The notes beneath the pieces are model-generated. The model made no database searches, was not told where the DNA came from, and saw nothing but the letters and a program-made list of their open reading frames with translations. From Ahrensia sp. (GTDB taxonomy: Bacteria; Pseudomonadota; Alphaproteobacteria; Rhizobiales; Rhizobiaceae), in contig PAKZ01000043.1 in the NCBI GenBank assembly GCA_002706335.1, forward strand, positions 62,001-126,000: a stretch of 64,000 nucleotides of DNA. Direction: 5' to 3'. Shown here in pieces: positions 20,668 through 34,461 of this stretch. Positions within the stretch are counted from its first letter, which is position 1; each line of letters opens with the position of its first letter. A program made the position numbers and the translations under genes.

Positions 20668-21627
20668 ATGAAACTATTACTTCGTACGATCGCTGCCGGA
20701 GCGCTGGTGTTGGGCGCGCATTCTGCTGTGGCCGAGGAGACGTTCATCACGATCGGCACAGGCGGCCAGACCGGCGTTTACTACGTCGTCGGCCAGTCGA
20801 TTTGCCGACTGGTGAATCGCGGCACGGCGGAGCACAACATCAAATGCACCGCACCGTCGACCGGCGGTTCCATCGACAACATCAACGCCATCAAGAATGG
20901 CGACCGGCAGATGGGCGTCGCCCAGTCGGACTGGCAGTTCCACGCCTATAACGGCTCGTCCCAGTTCGAGGGTGACAAGTTCGACAAGCTGCGCGCGGTC
21001 TTCTCCGTGCATGGCGAGCCCTTTACCGTCGTTGCCCGCGCCGATGCCGGCGTGAAGAATTTCGACGATCTCAAGGGAAAGCGCGTCAATATCGGCAATC
21101 CGGGGTCGGGCCAGCGCGCGACCATGGACGTCGTCATGAACGCCAAGGGCTGGACGCTTGACGATTTCGCGCTCGCTTCCGAGCTGAAGGCCGCCGAACA
21201 GGCCGGCGCGCTCGGCGACAACAAGATCGACGCGATGATCTATACCGTCGGCCATCCGGCAGGCGCGATCCAGGAAGCGACGACAACCACCGACGCGACG
21301 CTCGTCGATGTCGACGGTGACGCAATCGCCAAGCTGGTCGAGGACAACCCGTACTACGCCTGGGCGACCATTCCAGGCGGTATGTACAAGGGCAATGATG
21401 AAGACACGACGACCTTCGGCGTGAAGGCGACCTTCGTCTCCTCTTCCGATGTGCCCGATGAGGTCATCTACCAGGTCGTCAAGGCGGTCTTCGACAATTT
21501 CGACCGCTTCAAGAAGCTTCACCCGGCCTTCGAGAACCTGACCGAAGAGCAGATGATCAAGGACGGCCTGTCCGCGCCGCTGCATGACGGCGCCGTGAAG
21601 TACTACAAGGAACGCGGCTGGATGTAA
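20668..21627 (+). CDS. TAXI-family TRAP transporter substrate-binding protein
   Basis: 319 residues with a Sec signal peptide (cleavage after SAVA, about residue 22), so it is periplasmic. TIGTGGQTGVYYVVGQSIC is the TAXI signature, followed by GSIDNINAIKNGDRQMGVAQSDW and GNPGSGQRATMDV. It captures a small acid or amino acid derivative for the fused permease downstream. GTGGGAG precedes the ATG. A strong terminator-like hairpin follows, which should make this gene more abundant than the permease gene. Confidence 0.95.
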   Translation: MKLLLRTIAAGALVLGAHSAVAEETFITIGTGGQTGVYYVVGQSICRLVNRGTAEHNIKCTAPSTGGSIDNINAIKNGDRQMGVAQSDWQFHAYNGSSQFEGDKFDKLRAVFSVHGEPFTVVARADAGVKNFDDLKGKRVNIGNPGSGQRATMDVVMNAKGWTLDDFALASELKAAEQAGALGDNKIDAMIYTVGHPAGAIQEATTTTDATLVDVDGDAIAKLVEDNPYYAWATIPGGMYKGNDEDTTTFGVKATFVSSSDVPDEVIYQVVKAVFDNFDRFKKLHPAFENLTEEQMIKDGLSAPLHDGAVKYYKERGWM

Positions 21628-21637
21628 TTCGCCGCCG

Positions 21638-21670
21638 GACCCCGCAGGCTTGCCTGCGGGGTCTTCTTTT
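21638..21670 (+). terminator. rho-independent terminator/attenuator between TRAP binding protein and permease
   Basis: GACCCCGCAGGC (21638-21649) pairs perfectly with GCCTGCGGGGTC (21652-21663), followed by TTCTTTT. It lies inside the transport operon, 10 bases after the binding-protein stop and 50 before the permease ATG. Confidence 0.85.
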
Positions 21671-21719
21671 CGAGGGGTTGTGCAACTAGGCCGCATGATG
21701 CGGCGCGATCGGGGATGAG

Positions 21720-24470
21720 ATGATGGCTGAAACGTCGAGCGCGAAAGAACATGAGGGTCTCAGCCAGGCGGAAATCGACGAACTCGTCGCGCAGGCCGAT
21801 ACCGGCGGCCGTAACGCCGGCCCCTTCATAGGACGCCTCATTGCCGGCATCGCGCTCGTTTGGTCGCTGTTCCAGCTTTGGTTCGCCTCGCCGCTGCCCT
21901 TTGCGCTCGGTTTTGGCGTTTTCAACGACACCGAGGCTCGCTCGATCCATCTCGCCTTCGCCATCGTGCTGGCGTTTCTCGCCTTTCCGCCTGCCCGTTC
22001 GACCGTGCAGACCGCGCTCGGGGTCGGTGTGCCGCTCGTCCTTGGCGGGCTTCTTGCGCTCTCGGCGGGAGACATCTTCCCCGCCTGGGTCGTTTTGCTG
22101 ATCACTGTTGTCGTGGCCGGGGCCTGCGCGCTTCCAACCAGCGGCAACCGCGTCGCCATCCAGGAATGGGCCATGGCGATCGTCGGCGGCTTCTGCGCCG
22201 CCTATATCTTCCTGTTCTATCGCGATCTCGCGGACCGGGTCGGCCAGCCGATCTTCATCGACTATGTTGTGTCCATTGCCGGGTTGCTGCTGTTGCTCGA
22301 GGCAGCGCGGCGTTCGCTCGGCCCGGCCCTCGTCATCGTCGCCTCGGTGTTTCTGCTCTACACCGTGCTTGGGCCGTATATGCCCGAGATCATCGCCCAC
22401 AAGGGCAACAATCTGCGCGAGATCATCAACCACCACTGGATCACGACCGAGGGCGTGTTCGGCATTGCGCTCGGCGTATCCACCTCCTTCGTCTTCCTGT
22501 TCGTCCTGTTCGGCGCGCTCCTGGACAAGGCCGGCGCGGGCAATTATTTCATCCAGGTCGCCTTTTCGCTGATGGGCCACATGAAGGGGGGACCCGCCAA
22601 GGCGGCGGTCGTGTCCTCGGCGATGACCGGCCTGATCTCCGGCTCATCCATCGCCAATGTGGTGACGACAGGCACTTTCACCATCCCGTTGATGAAGAAG
22701 GTCGGCTTCTCCTCCGAGAAGGCCGGCGCGGTCGAGGTCGCGTCTTCGGTCAACGGTCAGATCATGCCGCCGGTCATGGGCGCCGCAGCTTTCCTGATGG
22801 TGGAATATGTCGGCATTCCCTATTTCGACGTGGTCAAGCATGCTTTCCTGCCGGCGGTTATCTCCTATATCGCGCTTGTTTATATCGTCCACCTGGAAGC
22901 CGCCAAGGCCGGCATGGAAGGCCTGCCGCGCTCCTATGAGCCGGGCCCGTGGATGCGCCGCATCGTCGGCTTCGTCTTCGGCGTTCTCGTGCTGTGCGTG
23001 CTGTCGCTCGCCGTCTATTACGGCATGGGCTGGATCCGGCCGACCTTCGGCGCCGCCTCTCCCTATGTCATCTTCGCCGTGCTGACGGCGGCCTATGTGG
23101 GTCTTCTCGCCTTCGGGTCGCGCTATCCCGAGCCGAAGATGGACGATCCCAACGCGCCGGTTACCTCGCTGCCGCTGCCGGGACCGACCATAAAATCCGG
23201 CCTGCATTTCATCCTGCCTGTCGTCGTCCTCGTCTGGGCGTTGATGGTGGAGCGGCTGTCGCCGGGCCTGTCGGCCTTCTGGGCGTCGGCCTTCATGATC
23301 TTCATCCTGCTGACCCAGCGCCCGCTTCTCGCGATGTTCCGCGGCGAGGGCGAGATGGGCGCGGCGGTCAGGCGCGGCTGGGATGAGCTGATCGATGGCC
23401 TGATCTCCGGCGCGCGCAACATGATCGGTATCGGCATCGCAACCGCGACGGCCGGCATCATCGTCGGCGCGGTTTCGCAGACCGGCGTAGGCTCGGCGCT
23501 TGCCGATGTCGTAGAGGTTCTGTCCGGCGGCAATTTGCTCGCGATCCTGTTCCTGACGGCGATCCTGTCGCTGATCCTCGGCATGGGCCTGCCGACGACG
23601 GCGAACTACATCGTCGTCTCAGCGTTGCTCGCTCCGGTGATCGTGACGCTCGGCCAGGAAAACGGCCTGCTGGTGCCGCTGATCGCGGTCCATCTCTTCG
23701 TTTTCTATTTCGGCATCATGGCCGACGTGACCCCGCCGGTCGGCCTCGCCTCGTTTGCGGCGGCGGCCGTTTCCGGCGGCGATCCGATCCGCACCGGCGT
23801 CGTCGCCTTCTTCTATTCGCTGCGGACCGCGGCGCTGCCCTTCCTGTTCATCTTCAACACGGATCTGCTGCTGATCGAGGTCGACTGGATCCACGGTCTG
23901 TTCGTCTTCATTACCGCGACGGTGGCGATGCTGTTGTTCGCGGCGGGCACGCAGGGCTGGTTCCTGGCCCGCAACCGGATCTGGGAAACGGTTGCGCTGC
24001 TTCTGCTCGCCTTCACCTTCTTCCGGCCGGGCTTCTGGATGGACATGATCTATCCGCCTTATGAGGAGGTCGCGCCGGCGGAAATCGCGGCGGCGGCCGG
24101 AGACGTTCCCGCCGGTGACAGCCTGCGCATGCGGATATCCGGCATGGACGCCGTCGGTGAGGTTCGTGAATGGGTCGTTCTGCTGCCGCTGCCCGAGGGC
24201 GCGACCGGCGAGGAGCGGCTGGAGGCTGCCGGCCTCACGATCGTCGATCGCGACGGCAAGACAATCATCGACGACGTCACCTATGATTCGCCGGCCCAAA
24301 AGGTCGGGCTGGACTGGGATCAGGAGGTCATCCGCGTCCTCAAGCCGGCCAATCCGCCGACGAAATATCTCATGTATATTCCGGCGCTCCTGCTGCTTGC
24401 CCTCGTCATCTGGGCGCAGCGGCGGCGAGCGGAGAGTGCGCCGGGCCGGCCGCGCGAAGCGGCCGCGTAG
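21720..24470 (+). CDS. TRAP transporter permease, fused DctQ-DctM type with C-terminal DUF3394
   Basis: 916-residue inner-membrane protein combining the four-segment DctQ-like small subunit and the twelve-segment DctM-like large subunit, as usual for TAXI systems. The large-subunit motif GGPAKAAVVSSAMTGLISGSS is clear, as are GMGLPTTANYI and DVTPPVGLASFAAAA. The last 140 residues form a DUF3394 domain (periplasmic-looking, residues about 780-880) with a final membrane helix. It probably works as a Na+-driven symporter. The start is ATG-ATG with GGGGATGAG upstream. Confidence 0.95.
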   Translation: MMAETSSAKEHEGLSQAEIDELVAQADTGGRNAGPFIGRLIAGIALVWSLFQLWFASPLPFALGFGVFNDTEARSIHLAFAIVLAFLAFPPARSTVQTALGVGVPLVLGGLLALSAGDIFPAWVVLLITVVVAGACALPTSGNRVAIQEWAMAIVGGFCAAYIFLFYRDLADRVGQPIFIDYVVSIAGLLLLLEAARRSLGPALVIVASVFLLYTVLGPYMPEIIAHKGNNLREIINHHWITTEGVFGIALGVSTSFVFLFVLFGALLDKAGAGNYFIQVAFSLMGHMKGGPAKAAVVSSAMTGLISGSSIANVVTTGTFTIPLMKKVGFSSEKAGAVEVASSVNGQIMPPVMGAAAFLMVEYVGIPYFDVVKHAFLPAVISYIALVYIVHLEAAKAGMEGLPRSYEPGPWMRRIVGFVFGVLVLCVLSLAVYYGMGWIRPTFGAASPYVIFAVLTAAYVGLLAFGSRYPEPKMDDPNAPVTSLPLPGPTIKSGLHFILPVVVLVWALMVERLSPGLSAFWASAFMIFILLTQRPLLAMFRGEGEMGAAVRRGWDELIDGLISGARNMIGIGIATATAGIIVGAVSQTGVGSALADVVEVLSGGNLLAILFLTAILSLILGMGLPTTANYIVVSALLAPVIVTLGQENGLLVPLIAVHLFVFYFGIMADVTPPVGLASFAAAAVSGGDPIRTGVVAFFYSLRTAALPFLFIFNTDLLLIEVDWIHGLFVFITATVAMLLFAAGTQGWFLARNRIWETVALLLLAFTFFRPGFWMDMIYPPYEEVAPAEIAAAAGDVPAGDSLRMRISGMDAVGEVREWVVLLPLPEGATGEERLEAAGLTIVDRDGKTIIDDVTYDSPAQKVGLDWDQEVIRVLKPANPPTKYLMYIPALLLLALVIWAQRRRAESAPGRPREAAA

Positions 24471-24487
24471 GAGGGGAGTAAACGACG

Positions 24488-24913
24488 ATGTACAAAGCGA
24501 TCATGCTGCCGATTGACCTTGCGCACGAGAGTTCGTGGAAAAAGGCAATCCCCGTGGCCCTGAAGATGGCCGAGGCATTCGGCGCAAAGCTGCACGTCAT
24601 CACCGTCGTGCAGGACATCCGCGATGGGATGGTGGCGCAGTATTTCCCCGACGACTTCGAAACGAAGATGGTGCGCGAGGCCGCCGAGACGCTCTCCGGC
24701 GTCGTCGCACGCGAAATGCCGGGGGTCGACGTCACCGAGCATGTCGCCGCCGGCCAGATCTATCGCGAGATCGTGCGGGCCGCGGAGAAGAACGGCTGCG
24801 ATCTGATCGTCATGGCGTCGCATCGTCCCGAACTCGCCGATCTTTTGATCGGGCCGAATGCGGACCATGTCGCGCGGCACACGCCGGCCTCGGTCATGAT
24901 CGTTCGGGAATAG
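24488..24913 (+). CDS. universal stress protein, TeaD-like
   Basis: 141-residue UspA-fold protein. The C-terminal nucleotide-loop region is ASHRPELADLLIGPNADHV, close to the HRPxLxDxLLGxNA form of TeaD, the ATP-binding protein that modulates the ectoine TRAP transporter TeaABC in Halomonas. It lies 17 bases after the permease stop with AGGAGGGGAG as ribosome site, so a role in regulating this transporter's activity is a reasonable inference. Confidence 0.9.
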   Translation: MYKAIMLPIDLAHESSWKKAIPVALKMAEAFGAKLHVITVVQDIRDGMVAQYFPDDFETKMVREAAETLSGVVAREMPGVDVTEHVAAGQIYREIVRAAEKNGCDLIVMASHRPELADLLIGPNADHVARHTPASVMIVRE

Positions 24914-24930
24914 ACGCACCGCCCGCATTT

Positions 24931-24957
24931 GCGCCGCAATCGCGGCGCATGCGCCGC
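24931..24957 (+). repeat. three-arm element able to form two alternative hairpins
   Basis: GCGCCGC (24931-24937), GCGGCGC (24942-24948) and GCGCCGC (24951-24957). The middle arm pairs perfectly with either flanking copy. It lies between the usp stop and the aminotransferase start (25012). No T-run follows. Confidence 0.5.
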
Positions 24958-25011
24958 CGCAAATTCGATCAGGCGGAATGAGACGCGGAACTGGTCGAGA
25001 GGGATGACTTC

Positions 25012-26334
25012 ATGACTTCGCACATTTTCGGTCGCTCGACCGCGGGATCGTTGCCCGTGGCCGCGAAGGGCGACGGCTGTTACATCGTCGACACCAACGG
25101 CAAGCGCTATTTCGACGGGTCGGGCGGCGCGGCGGTCTCCTGCCTCGGCCATTCAGACGCGGATGTGACGGCCGCGATCAAGGAGCAGGTCGACAGGATC
25201 GCCTTTGCCCATACCGGCTTCTTCACCTCCGAACCGGCGGAAGATCTGGCGAACCTTCTAGTGGAACATGCGCCGGAGGGCATTGACCGCGTCTATTTCG
25301 TGTCCGGCGGTTCCGAGGCGGTCGAGGCGGCGATCAAACTGGCGCGGCAATATTTCCTCGAGATAGGCCAGAATCGTTATCGAGTCATCGCGCGGCGCCA
25401 GTCCTATCACGGCAACACGCTGGGTGCGCTGGCCGCCGGCGGCAATGAATGGCGCCGCCGGCAGTTCGCGCCGATGCTTGTCGAGACCTCGCATATTTCT
25501 CCCTGCTATGAATATCGCGGCCGCGACGAGGGCGAGAGCGCCTTCGACTACGGCCAGCGCGTCGCCAACGAGCTGGAATCCGAGATCGCGCGGCTGGGTC
25601 CGGAAACGGTGCTCGCCTTCATCGCCGAACCGGTCGTCGGCGCAACGGCGGGCGCGGTGCCGCCGGTTGAGGGCTATTTCAGGCGCATCCGCGAGATTTG
25701 CGACAAACATGGCATCCTGCTGATCCTCGACGAGGTGATGTGCGGCATGGGCCGAACCGGCACCCTGTTCGCCTGCGAGCAGGAAGGTATTTCGCCCGAT
25801 ATCGTCACGATCGCCAAGGGCCTTGGCGCGGGCTACCAGCCCATAGGCGCGATGCTCTGTACCGCGAAGATTTACGATGCCATCGCCGCGGGGTCGGGCT
25901 TCTTCCAGCACGGCCACACCTATATGGGCCATCCCGTCGCCACCGCCGCCTCGCGCGCCGTAATCAACGCCATCCTCGGACGGGGATTGCTGCCGAAAGT
26001 GCGCGACCAGGGCGCGCGGCTGAAGGCCGAGTTGCACAATGCCTTCGGCCAGCATCCCAATATAGGCGACATCCGGGGCAGGGGCCTTTTCCTTGGCATG
26101 GAATTCGTTGCCGACCGCGAGACGAAGGAACCGTTCGATCCGAAGCGCGGCGTCGCGAAGAACTTCAAGAAACACGCCTTCGAGGCAGGCCTGATCTGCT
26201 ACCCGATGAGCGGCACGATCGACGGGGCGAGGGGCGACCATGTCCTGCTCGCACCGCCCTTCATCATCGAGGATGCGCAGATCGACGAAGTCGTCGGCAA
26301 GCTCGACATGGCGGTAAAGGCGGTTTTCGCGTGA
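25012..26334 (+). CDS. class III PLP-dependent aminotransferase
   Basis: 440-residue fold-type I enzyme of the omega-aminotransferase group. LDEVMCGMGRTG carries the PLP-ring Asp240 and IAKGLGAGYQPIGA carries the Schiff-base Lys269. It should transfer a terminal or beta amino group to an oxo acid. The BKACE gene overlaps its stop by 4 bases (GTGA), so the aminotransferase product is probably the BKACE substrate or a precursor, for example a beta-amino acid turned into a beta-keto acid. AGAGGGATGACTTC precedes the ATG. Confidence 0.9.
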   Translation: MTSHIFGRSTAGSLPVAAKGDGCYIVDTNGKRYFDGSGGAAVSCLGHSDADVTAAIKEQVDRIAFAHTGFFTSEPAEDLANLLVEHAPEGIDRVYFVSGGSEAVEAAIKLARQYFLEIGQNRYRVIARRQSYHGNTLGALAAGGNEWRRRQFAPMLVETSHISPCYEYRGRDEGESAFDYGQRVANELESEIARLGPETVLAFIAEPVVGATAGAVPPVEGYFRRIREICDKHGILLILDEVMCGMGRTGTLFACEQEGISPDIVTIAKGLGAGYQPIGAMLCTAKIYDAIAAGSGFFQHGHTYMGHPVATAASRAVINAILGRGLLPKVRDQGARLKAELHNAFGQHPNIGDIRGRGLFLGMEFVADRETKEPFDPKRGVAKNFKKHAFEAGLICYPMSGTIDGARGDHVLLAPPFIIEDAQIDEVVGKLDMAVKAVFA

Positions 26335-27104
26335 GTTTCCTTGCATTGCCGGAGATCATGGTCGCGCCCAACGGGGCGCGGCGCACTAAAGCCGATCATC
26401 CGGCAATGCCGGTGACGATCCCGCAGACGGTCGCCACGGCCAAAGCCTGCTTCGAGGCCGGCGCGGGCGGCATCCACGCCCATGTCCGCGACGCCGACCA
26501 GGCGCATGTTCTCGATGCCGGACTCTATCGGGAACTCGTCGCGGAACTCGCCCGCGAACTGCCGGATATGACCGTGCAGATCACCACAGAGGCGGTCGGC
26601 CGATACTCGCCAGAAGAACAGCGCGCCGTAGTTCGCGCCGTGATGCCGAAAATGGTATCCGTGGCGTTGCGCGAAATGATTCCAGATCCCGACACAAGCG
26701 AAGCCGCGCGATTTTACCAATGGGCGCATGAGGCGCAGATCGCGGTCCAGCACATCCTCTACACGCCAAACGAGGTGTCGAGACTCGAGGAACTGGTCGA
26801 AACCGGCGTCATTCCGCGCGACGACCTCCAGTGCCTCTTCGTGCTAGGCCGTTACGCCAAGGATCAGGAAAGCGATCCGCTTGACCTTCTGCCCTTTCTC
26901 GACACGCTGAACATGTCGGCGTTGGTCGCCGACTGGGCTGTCTGTGCCTTTGGTCGCGGCGAGACGGCGGCGCTTCAGGCGGCATTTGCCGCCGGCGGCA
27001 AGGCGCGGGTGGGCTTCGAGAACAGTCTGTGGAATGCCGACGGCTCGCTCGCCGCCGACAATGCCGAACGGGTTCGGGAGATTTCGGCGCTGCAATCCCG
27101 TTGA
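26331..27104 (+). CDS. beta-keto acid cleavage enzyme family (BKACE, DUF849)
   Basis: 257-residue TIM-barrel enzyme. BKACE proteins bind Zn through HxH and condense a beta-keto acid with acetyl-CoA, giving acetoacetate and a new acyl-CoA. GGIHAHVRD holds the HxH (H49, H51). The C-terminal VGFENSLW sits where most members have G-x-E-D-N, so Asp is replaced by Asn. The frame is open 211 codons further upstream inside the aminotransferase gene, but the conserved start is the GTG at 26331 overlapping that gene's stop. It is shorter than the usual 270-310 residues. Confidence 0.9.
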   Translation: MSFLALPEIMVAPNGARRTKADHPAMPVTIPQTVATAKACFEAGAGGIHAHVRDADQAHVLDAGLYRELVAELARELPDMTVQITTEAVGRYSPEEQRAVVRAVMPKMVSVALREMIPDPDTSEAARFYQWAHEAQIAVQHILYTPNEVSRLEELVETGVIPRDDLQCLFVLGRYAKDQESDPLDLLPFLDTLNMSALVADWAVCAFGRGETAALQAAFAAGGKARVGFENSLWNADGSLAADNAERVREISALQSR

Positions 27105-27161
27105 CCCGTCTCCGAGGCTGGTGCAGACCAGCGGCCGGTCCGGCCAAAAGGGGAGTATCGC

Positions 27162-27809
27162 ATGATCCGGTTTCACGGTTATTTCAGGTCGTCGGCGTCC
27201 TATCGCTGCCGAATCGGTTTCAACCTGAAAGGGATCGGCTACGAATTCGTGCCCGTCCATCTTCTCAATGAAGGCGGGCAGCAGAAGAAGCCGGACTATC
27301 AGGCGCTCAATCCCCAAATGCTGGTCCCGACGCTGGAAGCGGGCGACCTGACGGTCGGCCAGTCGCTGGCTATCCTCGAATGGCTCGACGAAACCCATCC
27401 CGAACCGCCGCTCTTGCCGGCCAATGCCGACGATCGCGCCCGCGCGCGCGCCTTTGCGCTGGCGATCGCCTGCGATACGCATCCGTTCCAGAACCTGCGC
27501 GTCCTGCAATATCTGCGCGACGATCTGGCGCAGGACAAGGACGGCGTCGATCGCTGGCTTCAACGCTGGCTTGGCGGCGGGCTTGCCGCCTGCGAGCAAT
27601 TGCTGGCCGCCCGCGAAAACCAGACGACATTCTGCTTCGGCGAAACGCCGGGGCTGGCGGATATCTGCCTCGTGCCGCAGCTTTTTTCGGCGCGCCGCTT
27701 CAATATCGACTTGTCGAACATGCCGCGGATTGTCGCGATCGACGAAGCCTGCAACGCGCTATCCGCTTTCGCCGATGCCCATCCTTCGAAGCAGCCGGAC
27801 GCTGATTGA
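27162..27809 (+). CDS. maiA: zeta-class glutathione S-transferase, maleylacetoacetate isomerase-like
   Basis: 215-residue two-domain GST. The zeta signature SSASYRCRIGFNLKG (usually SSCSxRVRIAL) contains the catalytic Ser/Cys region, and the thioredoxin-like domain continues with VPTLEAGDLTVGQSLAILEWL. Canonical members isomerise maleylacetoacetate or maleylpyruvate with glutathione. No homogentisate or gentisate genes are nearby, so the substrate here is open. GGGGAG lies 7 bases before the ATG, 57 bases after the BKACE stop. Confidence 0.85.
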   Translation: MIRFHGYFRSSASYRCRIGFNLKGIGYEFVPVHLLNEGGQQKKPDYQALNPQMLVPTLEAGDLTVGQSLAILEWLDETHPEPPLLPANADDRARARAFALAIACDTHPFQNLRVLQYLRDDLAQDKDGVDRWLQRWLGGGLAACEQLLAARENQTTFCFGETPGLADICLVPQLFSARRFNIDLSNMPRIVAIDEACNALSAFADAHPSKQPDAD

Positions 27810-28489: not shown

Positions 28490-29767
28490 ATGATCGCAAC
28501 GCGAACAGCCAAACTGTTGACGGGTGTCGCACTCGCGACTGCGCTCGCTTCGCCGGCCTTGGCCGCCGATGTGACGCCGGAAGCGGTGGTGAACACCTAT
28601 GCTGACATCGCGCTCGCCAAATACGAGGATTCGCTGGCCACCGCCAAGGCGCTGGATGCTGCCGTCGACTCTTTCCTCGCAAGCCCCTCCGCCGAAGGTC
28701 TGCAGGCCGCCAAGGATGCCTGGCTGGCCGCGCGCGTACCCTATCAGCAGACGGAAGCCTATCGTTTCGGCAACGCTATCGTCGATGACTGGGAAGGCCG
28801 CGTGAACGCATGGCCGCTCGACGAAGGTTTGATCGACTATGTCGACGCGTCCTATGGCACCGAAAGCGACGAGAACAACCTCTATACGGCGAACGTCATC
28901 GCCAACCCGGAGATCGAAATCAACGGCGAGAAGGTCGACGCCTCCGAGATCACGCCGGAATTTCTGTCGGAAACGCTTCAGGAAGCCGGCGAAATCGAGA
29001 CCAATGTGGCGACCGGTTATCACGCCATCGAGTTTCTCCTGTGGGGCCAGGATCTGAACGGCACGGACGCCGGCAGCGGAGAGCGGCCCTGGACGGATTT
29101 CTCGACTTCGGAATGCACCCATGGGCATTGCGAGCGGCGCGCCCAGTATCTCGCCTCGGCGACGACCCTCCTCGTTTCCGACCTTGAGGAGATGGTGGCA
29201 AACTGGGAAGAAGGCGGCGAAGCCCGCAAGGAAGTCACCGCCGATCCGACGGCCGGCCTGTCCGCGATCCTGACCGGCATGGGCTCGCTCTCCTACGGCG
29301 AATTGGCCGGCGAGCGGATGAAGCTCGGCCTCCTCCTGCACGATCCGGAAGAAGAGCATGACTGCTTCTCCGACAATACGGACAAGTCGCACCTCTATGA
29401 CGCGATGGGCATTCAGAACGTCTATCTCGGCAGCTATGAGCGTGTCGACGGCACGACCGTTTCCGGCCCGTCGATCTCCGATCTCGTCGCCGCGAAGGAC
29501 GCCGATACCGATGTTGAACTGAAGGCCAAGCTCCAGGCGACCATGGATGCGATGCAGGCCATGGCGACGCGCGCCGACACGGTGGAAGCCTATGACCAGA
29601 TGATCGGGGCGGGCAATGAAGAGGGCAATGCCGTTGTGCAGGCCGCCATCGATGGCCTGATCGACCAGACCCGCTCGATCGAACGCGCGGTCACCTTGCT
29701 CGATCTCGACGGGATCGCTATCGAAGGCTCCGACAGCCTCGATAGCCCCGATGCGGTTTTCCAGTAA
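28490..29767 (+). CDS. imelysin family periplasmic protein (iron-regulated, IrpA-like)
   Basis: 425 residues with a Sec signal peptide (cleavage after ASPALA, about residue 25). Imelysin (M75) proteins are two four-helix-bundle periplasmic proteins tied to iron uptake. The diagnostic GxHxxE is intact: G176-Y-H178-A-I-E181. It has a cysteine pair near SECTHGHCERR and ends shortly after a Val/Asp-rich helix. GGAGACGACTT precedes the ATG. Bfd- and bacterioferritin-like genes follow, supporting an iron role; protease activity is doubtful in the family. Confidence 0.93.
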   Translation: MIATRTAKLLTGVALATALASPALAADVTPEAVVNTYADIALAKYEDSLATAKALDAAVDSFLASPSAEGLQAAKDAWLAARVPYQQTEAYRFGNAIVDDWEGRVNAWPLDEGLIDYVDASYGTESDENNLYTANVIANPEIEINGEKVDASEITPEFLSETLQEAGEIETNVATGYHAIEFLLWGQDLNGTDAGSGERPWTDFSTSECTHGHCERRAQYLASATTLLVSDLEEMVANWEEGGEARKEVTADPTAGLSAILTGMGSLSYGELAGERMKLGLLLHDPEEEHDCFSDNTDKSHLYDAMGIQNVYLGSYERVDGTTVSGPSISDLVAAKDADTDVELKAKLQATMDAMQAMATRADTVEAYDQMIGAGNEEGNAVVQAAIDGLIDQTRSIERAVTLLDLDGIAIEGSDSLDSPDAVFQ

Positions 29768-29797
29768 GATAGGTGCATTAAAGAAGGTCTGACCGGC

Positions 29798-30115
29798 ATG
29801 ATTGTTTGCAGTTGCAACGTAATCATGAAGAAGGAAATCGAGGAGGTTATCGTCAGCCTCCTCGACGAGGACGCCTGGCAGTTGATTACGCCGGGCGTCG
29901 TCTACCATGCCATGAAGAAGCGCGGGCGCTGCTGCGGCTGTTTCCCGAATGTGATCTCGATCATCGTCGATGTAACCGAACGGTATCATCGCGAGATCGA
30001 GACGCCGGACGACAAGATCATTCCCTTCATCCAGAAAATCCAGGCCGAGCATCAGCGGTGCGAAACAGTGCGCATGTTGGCTCGACAGGCGAAAATGCGG
30101 CGAGCCGCAGCTTGA
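29798..30115 (+). CDS. bfd: bacterioferritin-associated ferredoxin-like [2Fe-2S] protein with C-terminal extension
   Basis: 105 residues. The N-terminal 55 match Bfd/BFD-like domains: C4-x-C6 and C45-x-x-C48 (within GRCCGCFPN) give the four ligands of a [2Fe-2S] cluster. In Pseudomonas, Bfd reduces bacterioferritin core iron for release. Escherichia coli Bfd is 64 residues; here a basic 50-residue tail follows (EHQRCETVRMLARQAKMRRAAA, shortened). It sits between imelysin and bacterioferritin genes, 30 bases after the first and 63 before the second. Confidence 0.9.
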   Translation: MIVCSCNVIMKKEIEEVIVSLLDEDAWQLITPGVVYHAMKKRGRCCGCFPNVISIIVDVTERYHREIETPDDKIIPFIQKIQAEHQRCETVRMLARQAKMRRAAA

Positions 30116-30178
30116 TGGATCGGGCCTACGGGGTTAGGCCTCGTCGGCGACTTTCAGCAGCGAACAGGAGTGGGATCG

Positions 30179-30664
30179 ATGAAGGGCAAGGGCAAGGTAA
30201 TCGAGCGCCTCAATGAGGCGCTTTTTCTCGAATTGGGGGCCGTCAACCAGTATTGGTTGCACTACCGCCTGCTCGACGACTGGGGCTTCGGCAAGCTGGC
30301 CAAGAAGGAGCGCGAGGAATCGATCGAGGAAATGAACCACGCCGACAAGCTGGTCCAGCGCATCATCTTCCTCGAAGGCCACCCGAACCTGCAGAATGTC
30401 GCGCCGCTGCGCATAGGCCAGAACGTCAAGGAAGTCCTCGAAGCTGACCTGGCCGGCGAATACGACGCCCGCACCTCCTACAAGCTGTCGCGCGAAATCT
30501 GCCGTGAAGAGGAGGATTACGTCACGATGAATCTCTTCGAGGAACTGCTGACGGACGAGGAAGGTCATATCGACTTCCTCGAAACGCAGCTCGATCTTCT
30601 GGGGAAGATCGGCGAAGAGAGATATGGACTGTTGAATGCACACAGTGCCGACGAAGCGGACTAG
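30179..30664 (+). CDS. bfr: bacterioferritin
   Basis: 161-residue 24-mer subunit storing iron as a ferric mineral. All ferroxidase ligands are in place: E18, E51, H54, E94, E127, H130, with Y25 and the haem-binding Met52 (IEEMNHAD). The frame allows a GTG at 30170, but AGGAG at 30166-30170 with 8-base spacing selects the ATG at 30179, which also matches the family N-terminus ([15 protein letters not shown]). Confidence 0.97.
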
Positions 30665-30673
30665 CGCGGCGTC

Positions 30674-30698
30674 CGATCTGATTGGAGCGATCAGATCG
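30674..30698 (+). terminator. stem-loop after bacterioferritin
   Basis: CGATCTGAT (30674-30682) and ATCAGATCG (30690-30698) form a perfect 9-base stem with a 7-base loop, 10 bases after the bfr stop. Only TT follows, so it is either a weak terminator or an mRNA-stabilising end. Confidence 0.5.
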
Positions 30699-30741
30699 TT
30701 AAACTTGCGGTGCCAGCTGAGTTTTTGGACCGGTAATCTAA

Positions 30742-30765
30742 CCGATCATGATTTGTCATGATCGG
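30742..30765 (+). promoter_or_regulatory. 10-base perfect inverted repeat covering the start codon of the di-haem gene
   Basis: CCGATCATGA (30742-30751), TTTG, TCATGATCGG (30756-30765). The ATG at 30758 lies in the right arm, so in mRNA the start codon would be paired. It may instead be a DNA operator. Confidence 0.6.
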
Positions 30766-32278
30766 GAACCGTTCCAGGATCTTCGTCCTCGTGCTGTCGG
30801 CAGGCATGGCGGGCGCAGCGCTCGCCGGTGGCCTGCCGGCGCAACGTAACGATCTCGATACGAAGGATCTCGCCCGTGTGCGGGCTGTGATCGCGCTGAC
30901 AAGGGATTTTTCGAAGGCCGAAGCGTTCGAGGCGATGCCCGGCGGAGCGGCGACGACGAAGAAGACGATCAATCGCGATATCTTCTCCCAATCTTCCGCC
31001 AATCTGACCTTTGAACAGGAACGCGACTTCAAGCTCGGTAACGCGCTCTTTCGCAAGCTGTGGGTGTCCTCGCCGTCGTCGACCCAGGCCTCGGACGGGC
31101 TCGGGCCCCTTTACAATGCGCGAAGCTGCCAAGCCTGTCACCTGAAGGACGGTCGCGGACATCCGCCGCGAGCCGGCGAGGGCGCATCCTCGATGTTCCT
31201 GCGGCTGGCGCGCGCGCCGGAAACTGCGGAGGAACGTGCGGCGGTGGAGGATTACCTGATCCTCAACATGCCCGATCCGGTCTACGGCGAGCAGCTTCAG
31301 GAATTCGCCGTGCCGGGGCTGAAGGCCGAAGGGCATCTGCGAATCGCCTATGAGGAAGTCCCGGTGACGCTCTCAGGCGGCGAGGTTGCCTCGCTCAGGA
31401 AACCGTCCTACTCGGTCGACGAGCTCGGTTACGGTCCGCTCGATAAGGTGACCACGCTGTCGCCGCGGGTCGCCCCGCCGATGATCGGGCTCGGCCTCAT
31501 TGAGGCGATCGAACCCGCCGACATCCTCGCCAACGCCGATCCGGACGACGCCGATGGCGACGGGATTTCCGGCCGACCGCAGCTCAGGCGCTTCGAAAGC
31601 GGCGCTGCGCCGGTCCTCGGCCGGTTCGGCTGGAAGGCCCAGAACACGACGATCCGCATGCAGAGCGCCCATGCATTCGCCGGCGACATCGGCATCTCCA
31701 CGCCGGACGTGCCGAAGAGCCATGGCGACTGTACCACCGTCGAGACTGACTGCCTGGCTATGCCCGTCGGCGTGCAGAAACGGCTCGGCGACACCGAGGC
31801 GCCCGATCCGGTGCTAGATCTCGTCACCTTCTATTCGCAGAACCTCGCGGTTCCGGCGAGGCGCGATGTGGCCGATCCGCAGGTCCTGCGCGGCAAGGCG
31901 CTGTTCTACGATCTCGGCTGCACCGCCTGCCACACGCCGAAATTCGTCACCAGCCGCGATGCGGAGATCAGTCCGCACGCTTTCCAGTTGATCTGGCCCT
32001 ATTCCGACTTCCTTCTGCATGACATGGGCGAGGGCCTCGCCGACGGGCAGCAGGTCGGGGTCGCGAGTGGAACCGAATGGCGAACCGCGCCGCTTTGGGG
32101 CATCGGTTTGACGGAAACGGTCAACGGCCATACGTTCTTTTTGCATGACGGGCGCGCGCGCAATCTGACCGAGGCGATCCTTTGGCATGGCGGCGAAGCG
32201 CAACGCGCACGCGACGCCTTTGCCGCCTTGGAAAAGGCCGATCGCGAGGCGCTTATTCACTTTCTGGAGTCGCTTTGA
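30758..32278 (+). CDS. di-haem cytochrome c oxidoreductase (thiol oxidoreductase-like, DHOR family)
   Basis: 506 residues with an N-terminal signal peptide (about residues 1-23), hence periplasmic. Two c-type haem sites are visible: C124-QAC127-H128 and C388-TAC391-H392, as in the di-haem oxidoreductases related to MauG/cytochrome c peroxidases. DPDDADGDGISG (261-272) looks like a calcium-binding loop. Members commonly accompany imelysin genes and may oxidise Fe(II) or reduce peroxide during uptake (inference). No ribosome site is seen upstream, only the palindrome at 30742-30765. The next gene overlaps its stop by one base. Confidence 0.92.
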   Translation: MIGNRSRIFVLVLSAGMAGAALAGGLPAQRNDLDTKDLARVRAVIALTRDFSKAEAFEAMPGGAATTKKTINRDIFSQSSANLTFEQERDFKLGNALFRKLWVSSPSSTQASDGLGPLYNARSCQACHLKDGRGHPPRAGEGASSMFLRLARAPETAEERAAVEDYLILNMPDPVYGEQLQEFAVPGLKAEGHLRIAYEEVPVTLSGGEVASLRKPSYSVDELGYGPLDKVTTLSPRVAPPMIGLGLIEAIEPADILANADPDDADGDGISGRPQLRRFESGAAPVLGRFGWKAQNTTIRMQSAHAFAGDIGISTPDVPKSHGDCTTVETDCLAMPVGVQKRLGDTEAPDPVLDLVTFYSQNLAVPARRDVADPQVLRGKALFYDLGCTACHTPKFVTSRDAEISPHAFQLIWPYSDFLLHDMGEGLADGQQVGVASGTEWRTAPLWGIGLTETVNGHTFFLHDGRARNLTEAILWHGGEAQRARDAFAALEKADREALIHFLESL

Positions 32279-33363
32279 TGCGCATTGTCGCCGCTCTTTT
32301 TCTTTTTGTCCTGACACTTTCCCCCGCCCGCGCCATCGAATTGACGATTGGGGACGAGGAGGCGATGAAGCCGGTACGCACGCTCGTCGCGGCGTTCATC
32401 CAGCCCGGTTTCGAGCGCTTCGCCGAACAGGCTGAACTGGCCGAGATCGCGGTTTCCTCGCTCTGCAAAGAGCCTGGCGATCGATCGCTGGAGGCCGCGC
32501 GCAATGCGTTCAAGGACAGCGCGCTGGCGCTGGCGCGGATAGAGTTCCTGCGCACCGGCCCGCTGGCGCAGGAAAACCGGCTTGAACGGCTCCTGTTCTG
32601 GCCGGACCGCCGCGGCATCGCATTGCGTCAGGTCCAGGGGGTGATCGCCGAAGGCGACGAGAGCGTCACCGATCCCGCGAACCTGCCGGAAAAAAGCGTG
32701 GCGCTGCAGGGATATAACGCACTGGAATATCTGCTGTTCGGAACCGGATCCGATACGCTCGCCGAGCCGGGCGACGCCTTCCGCTGCGGCTTCGCCCATG
32801 CGGTCGCGGCCAATATCCATCTGATCGCCGCCCAGCTAAGCGAAGAATGGACTCAGGAAGACGGTTTTGCGGCCGCCTGGACCAGTCCCGGTCCGGAGAA
32901 CGACTATTTCCGCAACACAGAGGAAGCGATCAGCGAGTTGCTGTCGATCCCTTCGGAAGCTTTCGAGATCATTCGCGACCAGCGCCTTCAGCCGATCGTT
33001 CCCGAAGAAGACGGCAAGGCCAATCCGAAGAGCGCGCTGTTCTGGCGCTCGGATCTGACGATGCCGTTCATCCGGGCGAATTTCGATGCGCTGCGCACCT
33101 ATTTCGAGGTTTCGGAGATGATCTCGATCCTCCCGGAGGATCAGCGCTGGCTCGGCAAGTCCATCGAGTTCGAGTTCAACAATTCGGGGGATATCCTGTC
33201 GCGGCTGCAAATGCCGGTCGCGTCCATCCTCAAGGACGAGGATCGCGCCGGCGAACTGGGCTATCTCGTGATCCTTACGCAGAGCCTGCAGCAGCTATTC
33301 GGCACGCAAGTGACTTCGGCGCTCGGCCTCTCCGTCGGCTTTTCATCGCTCGACGGAGACTGA
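32278..33363 (+). CDS. second imelysin-family periplasmic protein, GxHxxE motif altered
   Basis: 361 residues with a short signal peptide (about 1-19, ending PARA). The overall pattern is imelysin-like, but the signature reads G145-Y-N147-A-L-E150 where GxHxxE would be expected, so the His is replaced by Asn. The frame is open from 32182, but the ATG at 32278, overlapping the previous stop (TGATG), begins the signal peptide and is the start. It lies 3 bases before the DUF1513 gene and is probably a partner or structural relative of the first imelysin. Confidence 0.88.
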   Translation: MRIVAALFLFVLTLSPARAIELTIGDEEAMKPVRTLVAAFIQPGFERFAEQAELAEIAVSSLCKEPGDRSLEAARNAFKDSALALARIEFLRTGPLAQENRLERLLFWPDRRGIALRQVQGVIAEGDESVTDPANLPEKSVALQGYNALEYLLFGTGSDTLAEPGDAFRCGFAHAVAANIHLIAAQLSEEWTQEDGFAAAWTSPGPENDYFRNTEEAISELLSIPSEAFEIIRDQRLQPIVPEEDGKANPKSALFWRSDLTMPFIRANFDALRTYFEVSEMISILPEDQRWLGKSIEFEFNNSGDILSRLQMPVASILKDEDRAGELGYLVILTQSLQQLFGTQVTSALGLSVGFSSLDGD

Positions 33364-33366
33364 ACG

Positions 33367-34461
33367 ATGCGCCTCTTCTCACCGACAACCCCGATCGATC
33401 GCCGCGCCTTCCTGACCGCCGCCGGTGGCGCGTTTCTCGCCGGCCTCGCGTCGCGCTCGGCGGCTGCGCTGGCGAATACGGACGCGGTCTTCGCCTCGGC
33501 CTATCTTGACGGAAACGGGGGCTTCGGTGTCGCGCTGCTGGCCGAGGACGCCACTGTCCTGCATCGCTACGACTTGCCCGAGCGCGGCCATGACGCGGTG
33601 TTCGGCCCGGACGGCCGGACGCTGGTGGTTTTCGCGCGGCGTCCCGGCACATTCGCCGCCGTGATCGACATGCGCGGCGAAGACGAACCACTTATCGTCC
33701 ATGCGCCGGAGGGCCGCCACTATTATGGCCATGGCTGTTTCTCGCCGGACGGAAAGCTGCTCTTCTCGACGGAAAACGATTACGATAATGCCCGCGGCGT
33801 CATCGGCGTCTACGACGCCACGGACGGGTTCAGGCGCATCGGCGAGTTCTTCTCCGGCGGTATCGGCCCGCATGACATGACGGTCTTGCCGGACGGACGC
33901 ACCATGCTGATCGCCAATGGCGGACTGGAAACCCACCCGGATTACGGCCGCGCTGTGCTCAACGTCGCGACCATGAAGCCGAACCTCGCCTTCATCGATC
34001 TCGCCGATTACAGCGTGCTCTCCGTCGGCGAGCTGACACCGGACCTGCACAAACTGTCGATCCGCCATCTCGCCATGGCCGAAGACGGCACGACATGGTT
34101 CGGAGCCCAGAACCAGGGCGATATCCACGAGGCGTTGCCTCTTGCCGGTTCTATATCGCCCGATGGCGATATCCGTCTGCTCGACCTGCCCGAGGACGAA
34201 CTGCGATCGATGCGCGGCTATATCGGCTCGGTCGCCTATAATGGCCGATCGGGCTCGGTACTGTTCACGTCGCCGCAGGGCAATGTCGCTGTCGAAGTTG
34301 CATGCGACACCGGCGCGATCCGCAATCGCATGGACCTGCCGGATATTTGCGGCGCGGTCGACCGGGGGCCGGGCTACCTGCTGTCAAGCGGCATGGGAGT
34401 GCTCGACGGGCGCCATACCGACCTGTCATGGGACAATCACATCGTCCGACGCGCCATCTGA
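33367..34461 (+). CDS. DUF1513 family periplasmic beta-propeller protein, Tat-exported
   Basis: 364 residues. The N-terminus DRRAFLTAAGGAFLAG is a twin-arginine signal, so it is exported folded and may carry a cofactor. The mature part has repeated blades (FGPDGRTLVVFARR, FSPDGKLLFSTEND, LPDGRTMLIANGG), giving a beta-propeller. DUF1513 proteins usually accompany imelysin and di-haem genes, and the cluster is thought to be an iron-uptake module. It ends one base before the convergent VOC gene. Confidence 0.9.
   Translation: MRLFSPTTPIDRRAFLTAAGGAFLAGLASRSAAALANTDAVFASAYLDGNGGFGVALLAEDATVLHRYDLPERGHDAVFGPDGRTLVVFARRPGTFAAVIDMRGEDEPLIVHAPEGRHYYGHGCFSPDGKLLFSTENDYDNARGVIGVYDATDGFRRIGEFFSGGIGPHDMTVLPDGRTMLIANGGLETHPDYGRAVLNVATMKPNLAFIDLADYSVLSVGELTPDLHKLSIRHLAMAEDGTTWFGAQNQGDIHEALPLAGSISPDGDIRLLDLPEDELRSMRGYIGSVAYNGRSGSVLFTSPQGNVAVEVACDTGAIRNRMDLPDICGAVDRGPGYLLSSGMGVLDGRHTDLSWDNHIVRRAI

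Follow-up and report, generated by a model that had tools for sequence, protein, structure and literature searches.

In a 64,000-nucleotide stretch of the genome of Ahrensia sp. (contig PAKZ01000043.1, positions 62,001 to 126,000; the whole stretch is referred to here as the window), six successive genes encode a TAXI-TRAP transporter with a universal stress protein (USP), a class III aminotransferase, a protein of the beta-keto acid cleavage enzyme (BKACE) family and a zeta-class glutathione S-transferase (GST). Comparisons among related genomes supported the view that the transporter belongs with the aminotransferase and the BKACE-family gene in a conserved unit of catabolic appearance. The families are known ones in a conserved combination that we have not found described, and the BKACE-family member belongs to a group whose catalytic site is altered. 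The unit may be an operon that imports and breaks down a glutamate-like amino dicarboxylate, a reading that we consider plausible on the strength of sequence comparisons and put forward tentatively. An original prediction, made for this DNA without database searches, had named a complete TAXI-TRAP system, the aminotransferase, a GTGA overlap, the BKACE-family gene and the zeta GST; their content, order and coordinates were confirmed (Table 1).

Conservation of the gene cluster

We used two samples of genomes. One consisted of 385 genomes of the class, that of the window among them, in which matches were accepted at E ≤ 1e-40 for the BKACE-like group and at E ≤ 1e-140 for the aminotransferase family NF005685. 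The other, a scan of named genomes, provided the best 80 of at least 564 confirmed relatives (the 80 named loci), some of which lie on short contigs. Gene order was also compared in six relative loci, 3 from the same genus (L172, L174 and L176) and 3 from the same family, and refers there to the loci examined.

The BKACE-like group was present in 54 of the 385 class genomes and the aminotransferase in 105 (103 over the family cut-off). Both families occurred together in 48 genomes, and the aminotransferase was found in 57 of the 331 genomes that had no BKACE-like gene (Fisher p 3.9e-25, a value that is indicative only, the genomes being related). The two genes were no more than 3 kb apart in 41 of the 54 genomes that carry the BKACE-like gene, and no more than 156 bp apart in 36, and on this conservation we rejected chance neighbours as an explanation. 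Among the named loci, 61 of 80 had an aminotransferase scoring at least 500 bits, which was located directly upstream of the BKACE-like gene and on the same strand in all except L047 and L051. TAXI and permease genes were present in 32 of these 80 loci and the USP gene in 30. These transporter genes run in the same line as the pair or diverge from it, and in one locus they lie downstream. A regulator of RpiR type was found in 36 of the 80; three RpiR queries detected none in the window. The same cluster was also observed on plasmid records, and in a Thalassospira row the order was RpiR, aminotransferase, BKACE, TAXI, permease, USP. Thus the synteny check, in which pair and TAXI genes recur at these frequencies, bears out the earlier proposal that the transporter is linked to the 2 enzymes. 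A literature search for BKACE proteins with a TRAP transporter or an aminotransferase found no account of this cluster among the matches listed, most subscription journals being outside its coverage.

One related arrangement was seen on Sinorhizobium plasmid pHRC017 (L120 8889-15151), which has a related aminotransferase and an RpiR regulator, with a carboxymuconolactone-decarboxylase-family gene and two Xaa-Pro-peptidase-family genes where BKACE would stand.

Active site of the BKACE-like protein

The BKACE-like protein matched the DUF849 family (PF05853) at 182.8 bits, and its AlphaFold model was confident (pLDDT 94.4). The best structural match of the model was the enzyme Kce (2y7e; Z 30.4, root mean square deviation 2.3, 245 residues), and 8rip matched with Z 28.2. 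These matches place the protein in the DUF849 family of TIM barrels. The scores for the Kce equivalog NF052387 (94.1 bits vs a cut-off of 382) and for the 3-oxoadipate equivalog (91 vs 350 bits) were well below those required.

Alignment to Kce gave the following correspondences, with Kce residues named first: E14-R17, H46-H49, H48-H51, S82-T85, G84-E87, E143-I142, Y145-Y144, R226-R226, E230-E230 and D231-N231. The window protein is therefore like Kce in its fold, in the Zn ligands H46, H48 and E230, and in Tyr145 and Arg226; it is unlike Kce in having Ile for E143, Asn for D231, Arg for E14 and Glu for G84. We examined these positions in the 80 named loci and, the window's own locus aside, in the best-scoring 29 of the 53 class-sample genomes with a match, which were picked without a motif criterion, the 24 weaker matches being left out. 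The Zn ligands H49, H51 and E230, together with T85, E87, R226 and N231, were present in 80/80 named and 29/29 class-sample loci, and R17 in 76/80 and 28/29; in the named loci, R17, R226, E230 and N231 were partly preselected, as the scan patterns included GFEN and APNGAR. The catalytic Glu (E143 in Kce, E171 in BKACE15) was missing throughout, its place being taken by Ile in 79 and Leu in one of the named loci, and by Ile in 28 and Leu in one of the class-sample loci. Y144 was found in 78 of the 80 (the other two having Phe) and in 27 of the 29.

Ordinary DUF849 proteins gave a contrasting picture. The comparison set had 33 rows, made up of 30 of 48 genome places and L002-L004, and 31 of the rows (29 different) kept G84, E143 and D231, with Arg at the E14 place in 0/31; the remaining two, L155 and L156, had the residues of the window protein. 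In a tree of 54 rows, all 22 rows of the group fell on one side of a single 100/100 branch. The genome has three further DUF849 genes, in which E143 and D231 were kept. At the column of Kce Tyr145 we observed Phe instead of Tyr in 20 of the 31 ordinary rows, in contrast to the statement in PMC12871164 that the Tyr is present in all BKACE sequences.

In BKACE15, E171 is the proposed base, and the E171L change is reported to abolish activity (PMC11961710); this residue can be equated with Kce E143 because of the Tyr173/Tyr145 pair numbering in PMC12871164. Since the group lacks both the catalytic Glu and Asp231, and since E171L inactivates BKACE15, it is doubtful that the window protein runs the ordinary acetyl-CoA-dependent cleavage. 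The original prediction had proposed that reaction for it, which, as far as the known BKACE mechanism is concerned, is at odds with the replacement of E143 and D231 across the group. For the same reason, namely that the group is without that enzyme's catalytic base, the annotation '3-keto-5-aminohexanoate cleavage protein' on its genes is probably wrong. An Arg where Kce has E14 would be compatible with a second carboxylate.

The other half of that proposal, a beta-keto acid as the substrate, appeared sensible. In two loci of the group, L117 and L081, a 3-hydroxyacyl-CoA-dehydrogenase-type gene lies immediately 5' of the BKACE-like gene, and since enzymes of that type likewise give 3-keto acids, its presence points to a substrate of this kind. 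A distant class III aminotransferase is encoded farther upstream in L081 as well.

A first alternative is that the group has a rewired site and still cleaves a beta-keto acid with acetyl-CoA, E87 or another residue serving as the base. The retained Zn ligands and Arg226, the fixation of E87 at every locus examined in both samples and the close match of the model to Kce all favour this possibility, and if it were true, the pathway of the original prediction would be right in its chemistry. We nevertheless judge it somewhat unlikely, given that both acidic residues, E143 and D231, were replaced in the rows examined, that the single E171L change was enough to abolish BKACE15 activity, and that, of the seven activity groups into which the family is divided, two, plus a subgroup of a third, are described as being without BKACE activity (PMC4922564).

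The TAXI binding protein and its probable solute

The original prediction had treated the solute as an unknown amino compound. We observed that the TAXI protein of the window scored 394 bits against VcGluP (8S4J), second to 9oz4 at 396 bits, and that its site residues are Y38, S68, Q86, E117, Y192 and T193. The first four are equivalent to Y45, S75, Q93 and E125 of VcGluP and were kept in 32/32 TAXI proteins of the cluster. At the place of VcGluP Y200, 23 of these 32 proteins had Tyr and 8 had Phe; at that of M201, Thr was found in 31/32, the other one not being aligned, and Thr is also the residue in TtGluBP, which is described as a glutamate/glutamine binder. VcGluP is reported to bind L-glutamate, and glutamine and pyroglutamate more weakly (PMC11574862). 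The Vibrio cholerae L-glutamate system VcGluPQM, as presented in the same source, resembles that of the window further, in that it has the same kind of TAXI binding protein with these key residues, a fused permease with a DUF3394 domain (the 'claw' domain of VcGluQM) and a USP gene downstream. It differs in having M201 where the window protein has Thr, and in that aminotransferase and BKACE-like genes follow in the window.

Additional information came from loci with other importers. A GlnHPQ-type importer with a C45 peptidase was present in 6 of the 80 named loci, none of the six having a TAXI gene, and the GlnH of one such cluster, in Paracoccus pantotrophus, scored 308 bits against the glutamine-binding protein 1ggg. 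That importers of two unrelated families, both of glutamate/glutamine type, occur beside one enzyme pair suggests a glutamate- or glutamine-like solute, and the solute is probably of this kind. Still other importers occur elsewhere, for example another ABC type in Paracoccus aminovorans, so that a glutamate-type solute is only a tendency. By these criteria, the solute is probably an amino compound, as had been predicted, and the glutamate-type residues of the binding site make 'unknown' too strong a description. Genes for a C45 peptidase and an RpiR regulator accompany the GlnHPQ importer in the aminotransferase-BKACE clusters of L041, L056, L059, L067, L074, L093 and L116, where hydrolysis of an amide conjugate of the substrate may be the first step.

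A second alternative is that the TAXI-TRAP-USP genes specify a plain L-glutamate importer, supplying a nitrogen source or amino donor, and that a different, internally produced compound is the substrate of the aminotransferase and the BKACE-like protein. The glutamate-site residues are present, VcGluP itself binds L-glutamate, and deletion of a TAXI-TRAP system in Cereibacter is reported to cause loss of sodium-dependent growth on L-glutamate (PMC12632250). Also, the genome encodes eleven TAXI proteins over the cut-off, ten besides that of the window, and of the seven paralogs compared (22-29% identity), six were readable at the site and none of these six matched at all ten positions. Yet in many genera the TAXI unit is found close to the aminotransferase-BKACE pair, and elsewhere the same pair has other importers beside it, which suggests that these transporters feed it; a plain L-glutamate importer thus seems to us a rather doubtful explanation.

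Proposed pathway

From the observed genes, their conservation, the residue changes and the likeness of the binding site, we infer a ligand, reactions and a pathway for the proposed catabolic operon as follows. The TAXI protein, judging by homology, would capture the solute, and the fused TRAP permease would carry it inward. The class III aminotransferase, as its family suggests, would remove the amino group to yield a keto acid, which the BKACE-like protein would take at its Zn site, where Zn-assisted decarboxylation or another base-free reaction appears likelier than cleavage with acetyl-CoA. A class III aminotransferase ahead of a keto-acid enzyme suggests a beta-amino acid; the combination of glutamate-like and beta-amino acid leads to beta-glutamate (3-aminoglutarate), with 3-oxoglutarate as its keto acid. 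Conversion of beta-glutamate to 3-oxoglutarate and then to acetoacetate would accordingly be the leading candidate. 3-Oxoglutarate decarboxylates readily to acetoacetate at a Lewis-acid metal. The acetoacetate would then be activated by acetoacetyl-CoA synthetase or by a SCOT-type CoA transferase; scores over the cut-off were obtained in the genome for two acetoacetyl-CoA synthetases and one SCOT-type subunit. The complete route, in which uptake through TAXI-TRAP (or, elsewhere, GlnHPQ) would be followed by an aminotransferase for beta-glutamate and a novel Zn-dependent decarboxylase of 3-oxoglutarate, is quite unlikely, if the best single candidate that the sequences offer. That such a decarboxylase evolved within the BKACE family when the catalytic base was lost would be a part of the same proposal, and carries an equally low probability.

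Two published cases have parts in common with the beta-glutamate proposal. Group G6 of the DUF849 family is described as having no BKACE activity and as acting on, and decarboxylating, beta-ketoglutarate (PMC4922564, reporting Bastard et al.), and G7 as inactive on all substrates tested (PMC4922564); as family members without BKACE activity, the 2 groups resemble what is proposed for that of the window. In an engineered beta-alanine transaminase and BKACE15 module of the CORE cycle (PMC11961710), an aminotransferase likewise feeds a beta-keto acid to a BKACE. Unlike the window cluster, that module is engineered and uses malonate semialdehyde, and its BKACE15 has the catalytic Glu.

Several observations weigh against the beta-glutamate route, or against the operon reading more generally. 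As regards the enzyme, the invariant new Glu, E87, could be a relocated base that restores the acetyl-CoA reaction, and the window group might correspond to the inactive G7 instead of G6. As regards the solute, the same TAXI residues bind ordinary L-glutamate. Equivalents of Y45 and Q93 are common among TAXI proteins (78% and 54%), and all four key residues recur in the paralogous TAXI proteins L132 and L138 (27-29% identity), so that these residues are weak evidence of specificity; moreover, E. coli GlnH is a glutamine protein, not a glutamate protein. Of the 80 named loci, 48 had no TAXI gene near the BKACE-like gene (some contigs being short), and other importers occur. There are, in addition, neighbours for which the route has no explanation. 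A GcvT/FAD-oxidoreductase-type gene adjoins the aminotransferase in 3 of the 80 loci (L051, L063 and L099) and lies ~7 kb off in two further named loci, a possible one-carbon link. In 4 of the 80, which are of Roseibium type (L039, L043, L044 and L070), a purU-type gene, formyltetrahydrofolate deformylase-like by eye, is directly 3' of the BKACE-like gene; these genes prompted consideration of a malonate-semialdehyde/formyl-CoA route with beta-alanine as the substrate, which is a weak lead. Finally, a gene for a GabD-type semialdehyde dehydrogenase (by eye) is located between the BKACE-like and GST genes in L172 (7253-8707) and L174 (7990-9444), where the window has a gap of 57 bp. We rejected this dehydrogenase as a member of the system, as it was present in only 2 of the six relative loci and the 80 named loci had distant copies only (~37% identity or less).

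A third alternative is that the BKACE-like protein acts on a dicarboxylate as a hydrolase or lyase of non-BKACE type, in the manner of CESH[D] (cis-epoxysuccinate hydrolase, 5ZMU/5ZMY), a TIM-barrel relative of Kce. It draws on the facts that CESH[D] was the nearest listed structure not of DUF849 type (Z 26), that its catalytic residues form another set on this barrel (PMC6429283), and that BsfD too combines the barrel with chemistry unlike that of BKACEs (PMC12871164). In CESH[D] and BsfD, other residues are replaced and other substrates used. We regard this alternative as highly improbable, because E230, the third Zn ligand of Kce, is retained in the group, where CESH[D] uses another Glu (PMC6429283), and because keto acids are indicated by the usual neighbours of the group, namely the aminotransferase and, in two loci, a gene of hydroxyacid-dehydrogenase type.

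The zeta GST

The original prediction had left open a role for the GST in the pathway. We observed that this gene was the only one of the genome over the maiA cut-off of TIGR01262 (279 bits, cut-off 171), the next best scoring 71.5. In L172 and L174, gene order matched that of the window over the entire block, BLH and AbrB through imelysin, with the GST in place. In L176, also of the same genus, the TAXI-to-BKACE block was present without AbrB, GST or imelysin genes in 19.5 kb, and no GST was found in the three same-family loci. A search at 1e-8 of the available DNA of the 80 named loci, some of it short, found no zeta GST in 79, and the sole one detected, in L059, was ~10 kb away. We therefore rejected the GST as a pathway enzyme: its place is kept in two of six relative loci, both of the same genus, and the cluster of L176 stands without it.

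The GST is probably the maleylacetoacetate isomerase (maiA) of tyrosine breakdown, a neighbour of the system. The homogentisate dioxygenase gene hmgA is on another contig, with no fah or maiA seen beside it by eye. No match in the genome exceeded the cut-off for fumarylacetoacetase (TIGR01266), which weighs against the isomerase assignment.

Layout of the locus

The successive spacings of the six genes are 92, 17, 98, -4 and 57 bp, the GTG start of the BKACE-like gene overlapping the aminotransferase stop codon as GTGA. The TAXI protein and the single fused permease both scored over their cut-offs, as summarized in Table 1, so that the transporter is of TAXI-TRAP type. In the aminotransferase, Lys269 and Asp240 are, by motif, the presumed pyridoxal phosphate (PLP) residues.

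Table 1. Features of the cluster, in window coordinates
Feature	Position	Strand	Remarks
TAXI-family TRAP solute-binding protein	20668..21627	+	TIGR02122 358.8 bits, cut-off 84.35; signal peptide by eye
Terminator-like hairpin, 12 pairs, T-rich tail, between binding-protein and permease genes	21637..21664	+	
Fused TRAP permease	21720..24470	+	TIGR02123 671 bits, cut-off 320.65; C-terminal DUF3394 at residues 727-904
Universal stress protein, 141 aa	24488..24913	+	PF00582; 3' of permease gene
Class III PLP aminotransferase	25012..26334	+	NF005685/PRK07483, 762.4 bits, cut-off 485
BKACE-like gene (DUF849), GTG start	26331..27104	+	PF05853, 182.8 bits
Zeta GST	27162..27809	+	TIGR01262 maiA, 279.4 bits, cut-off 171.05

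Of 36 related loci, 21 also had, by a simple test, a hairpin with a T-rich tail 3' of the TAXI gene. Transcription may stop in part at this structure, which probably lets the binding protein be made in excess over the permease.

TeaD-type USPs have a glycine-rich ATP-binding motif. In the USP of the window, the stretch MASHRPELADLLIGPN lacks, by eye, the first glycines and the Ser/Thr of that motif. Of the earlier description of this protein as TeaD-like, then, the position after a TRAP permease holds and the ATP motif does not.

Farther downstream, at 28490-34461, an imelysin-type gene (PF09375) is followed, by eye, by genes for a bfd-like ferredoxin, bacterioferritin and a di-haem cytochrome-like protein, and second imelysin-like and DUF1513-like genes close the row. 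This segment looks like an iron-uptake cluster.

Significance of beta-glutamate

Beta-glutamate is reported to be the most abundant identified metabolite of Nitrosopumilus maritimus, at 730 mM, and in two ocean profiles its abundance at depth is said to exceed that near the surface (PMC8269262). It is also described as an osmolyte of methanogens (PMC1224877). According to a 2025 paper, KEGG has a single reaction for the compound (PMC12502400), and our literature search, with most subscription journals outside its coverage, found no paper on its breakdown among the matches listed. A defined gene set would make the question of beta-glutamate breakdown testable, and if the beta-glutamate route were true, marine and soil proteobacteria could use this osmolyte.

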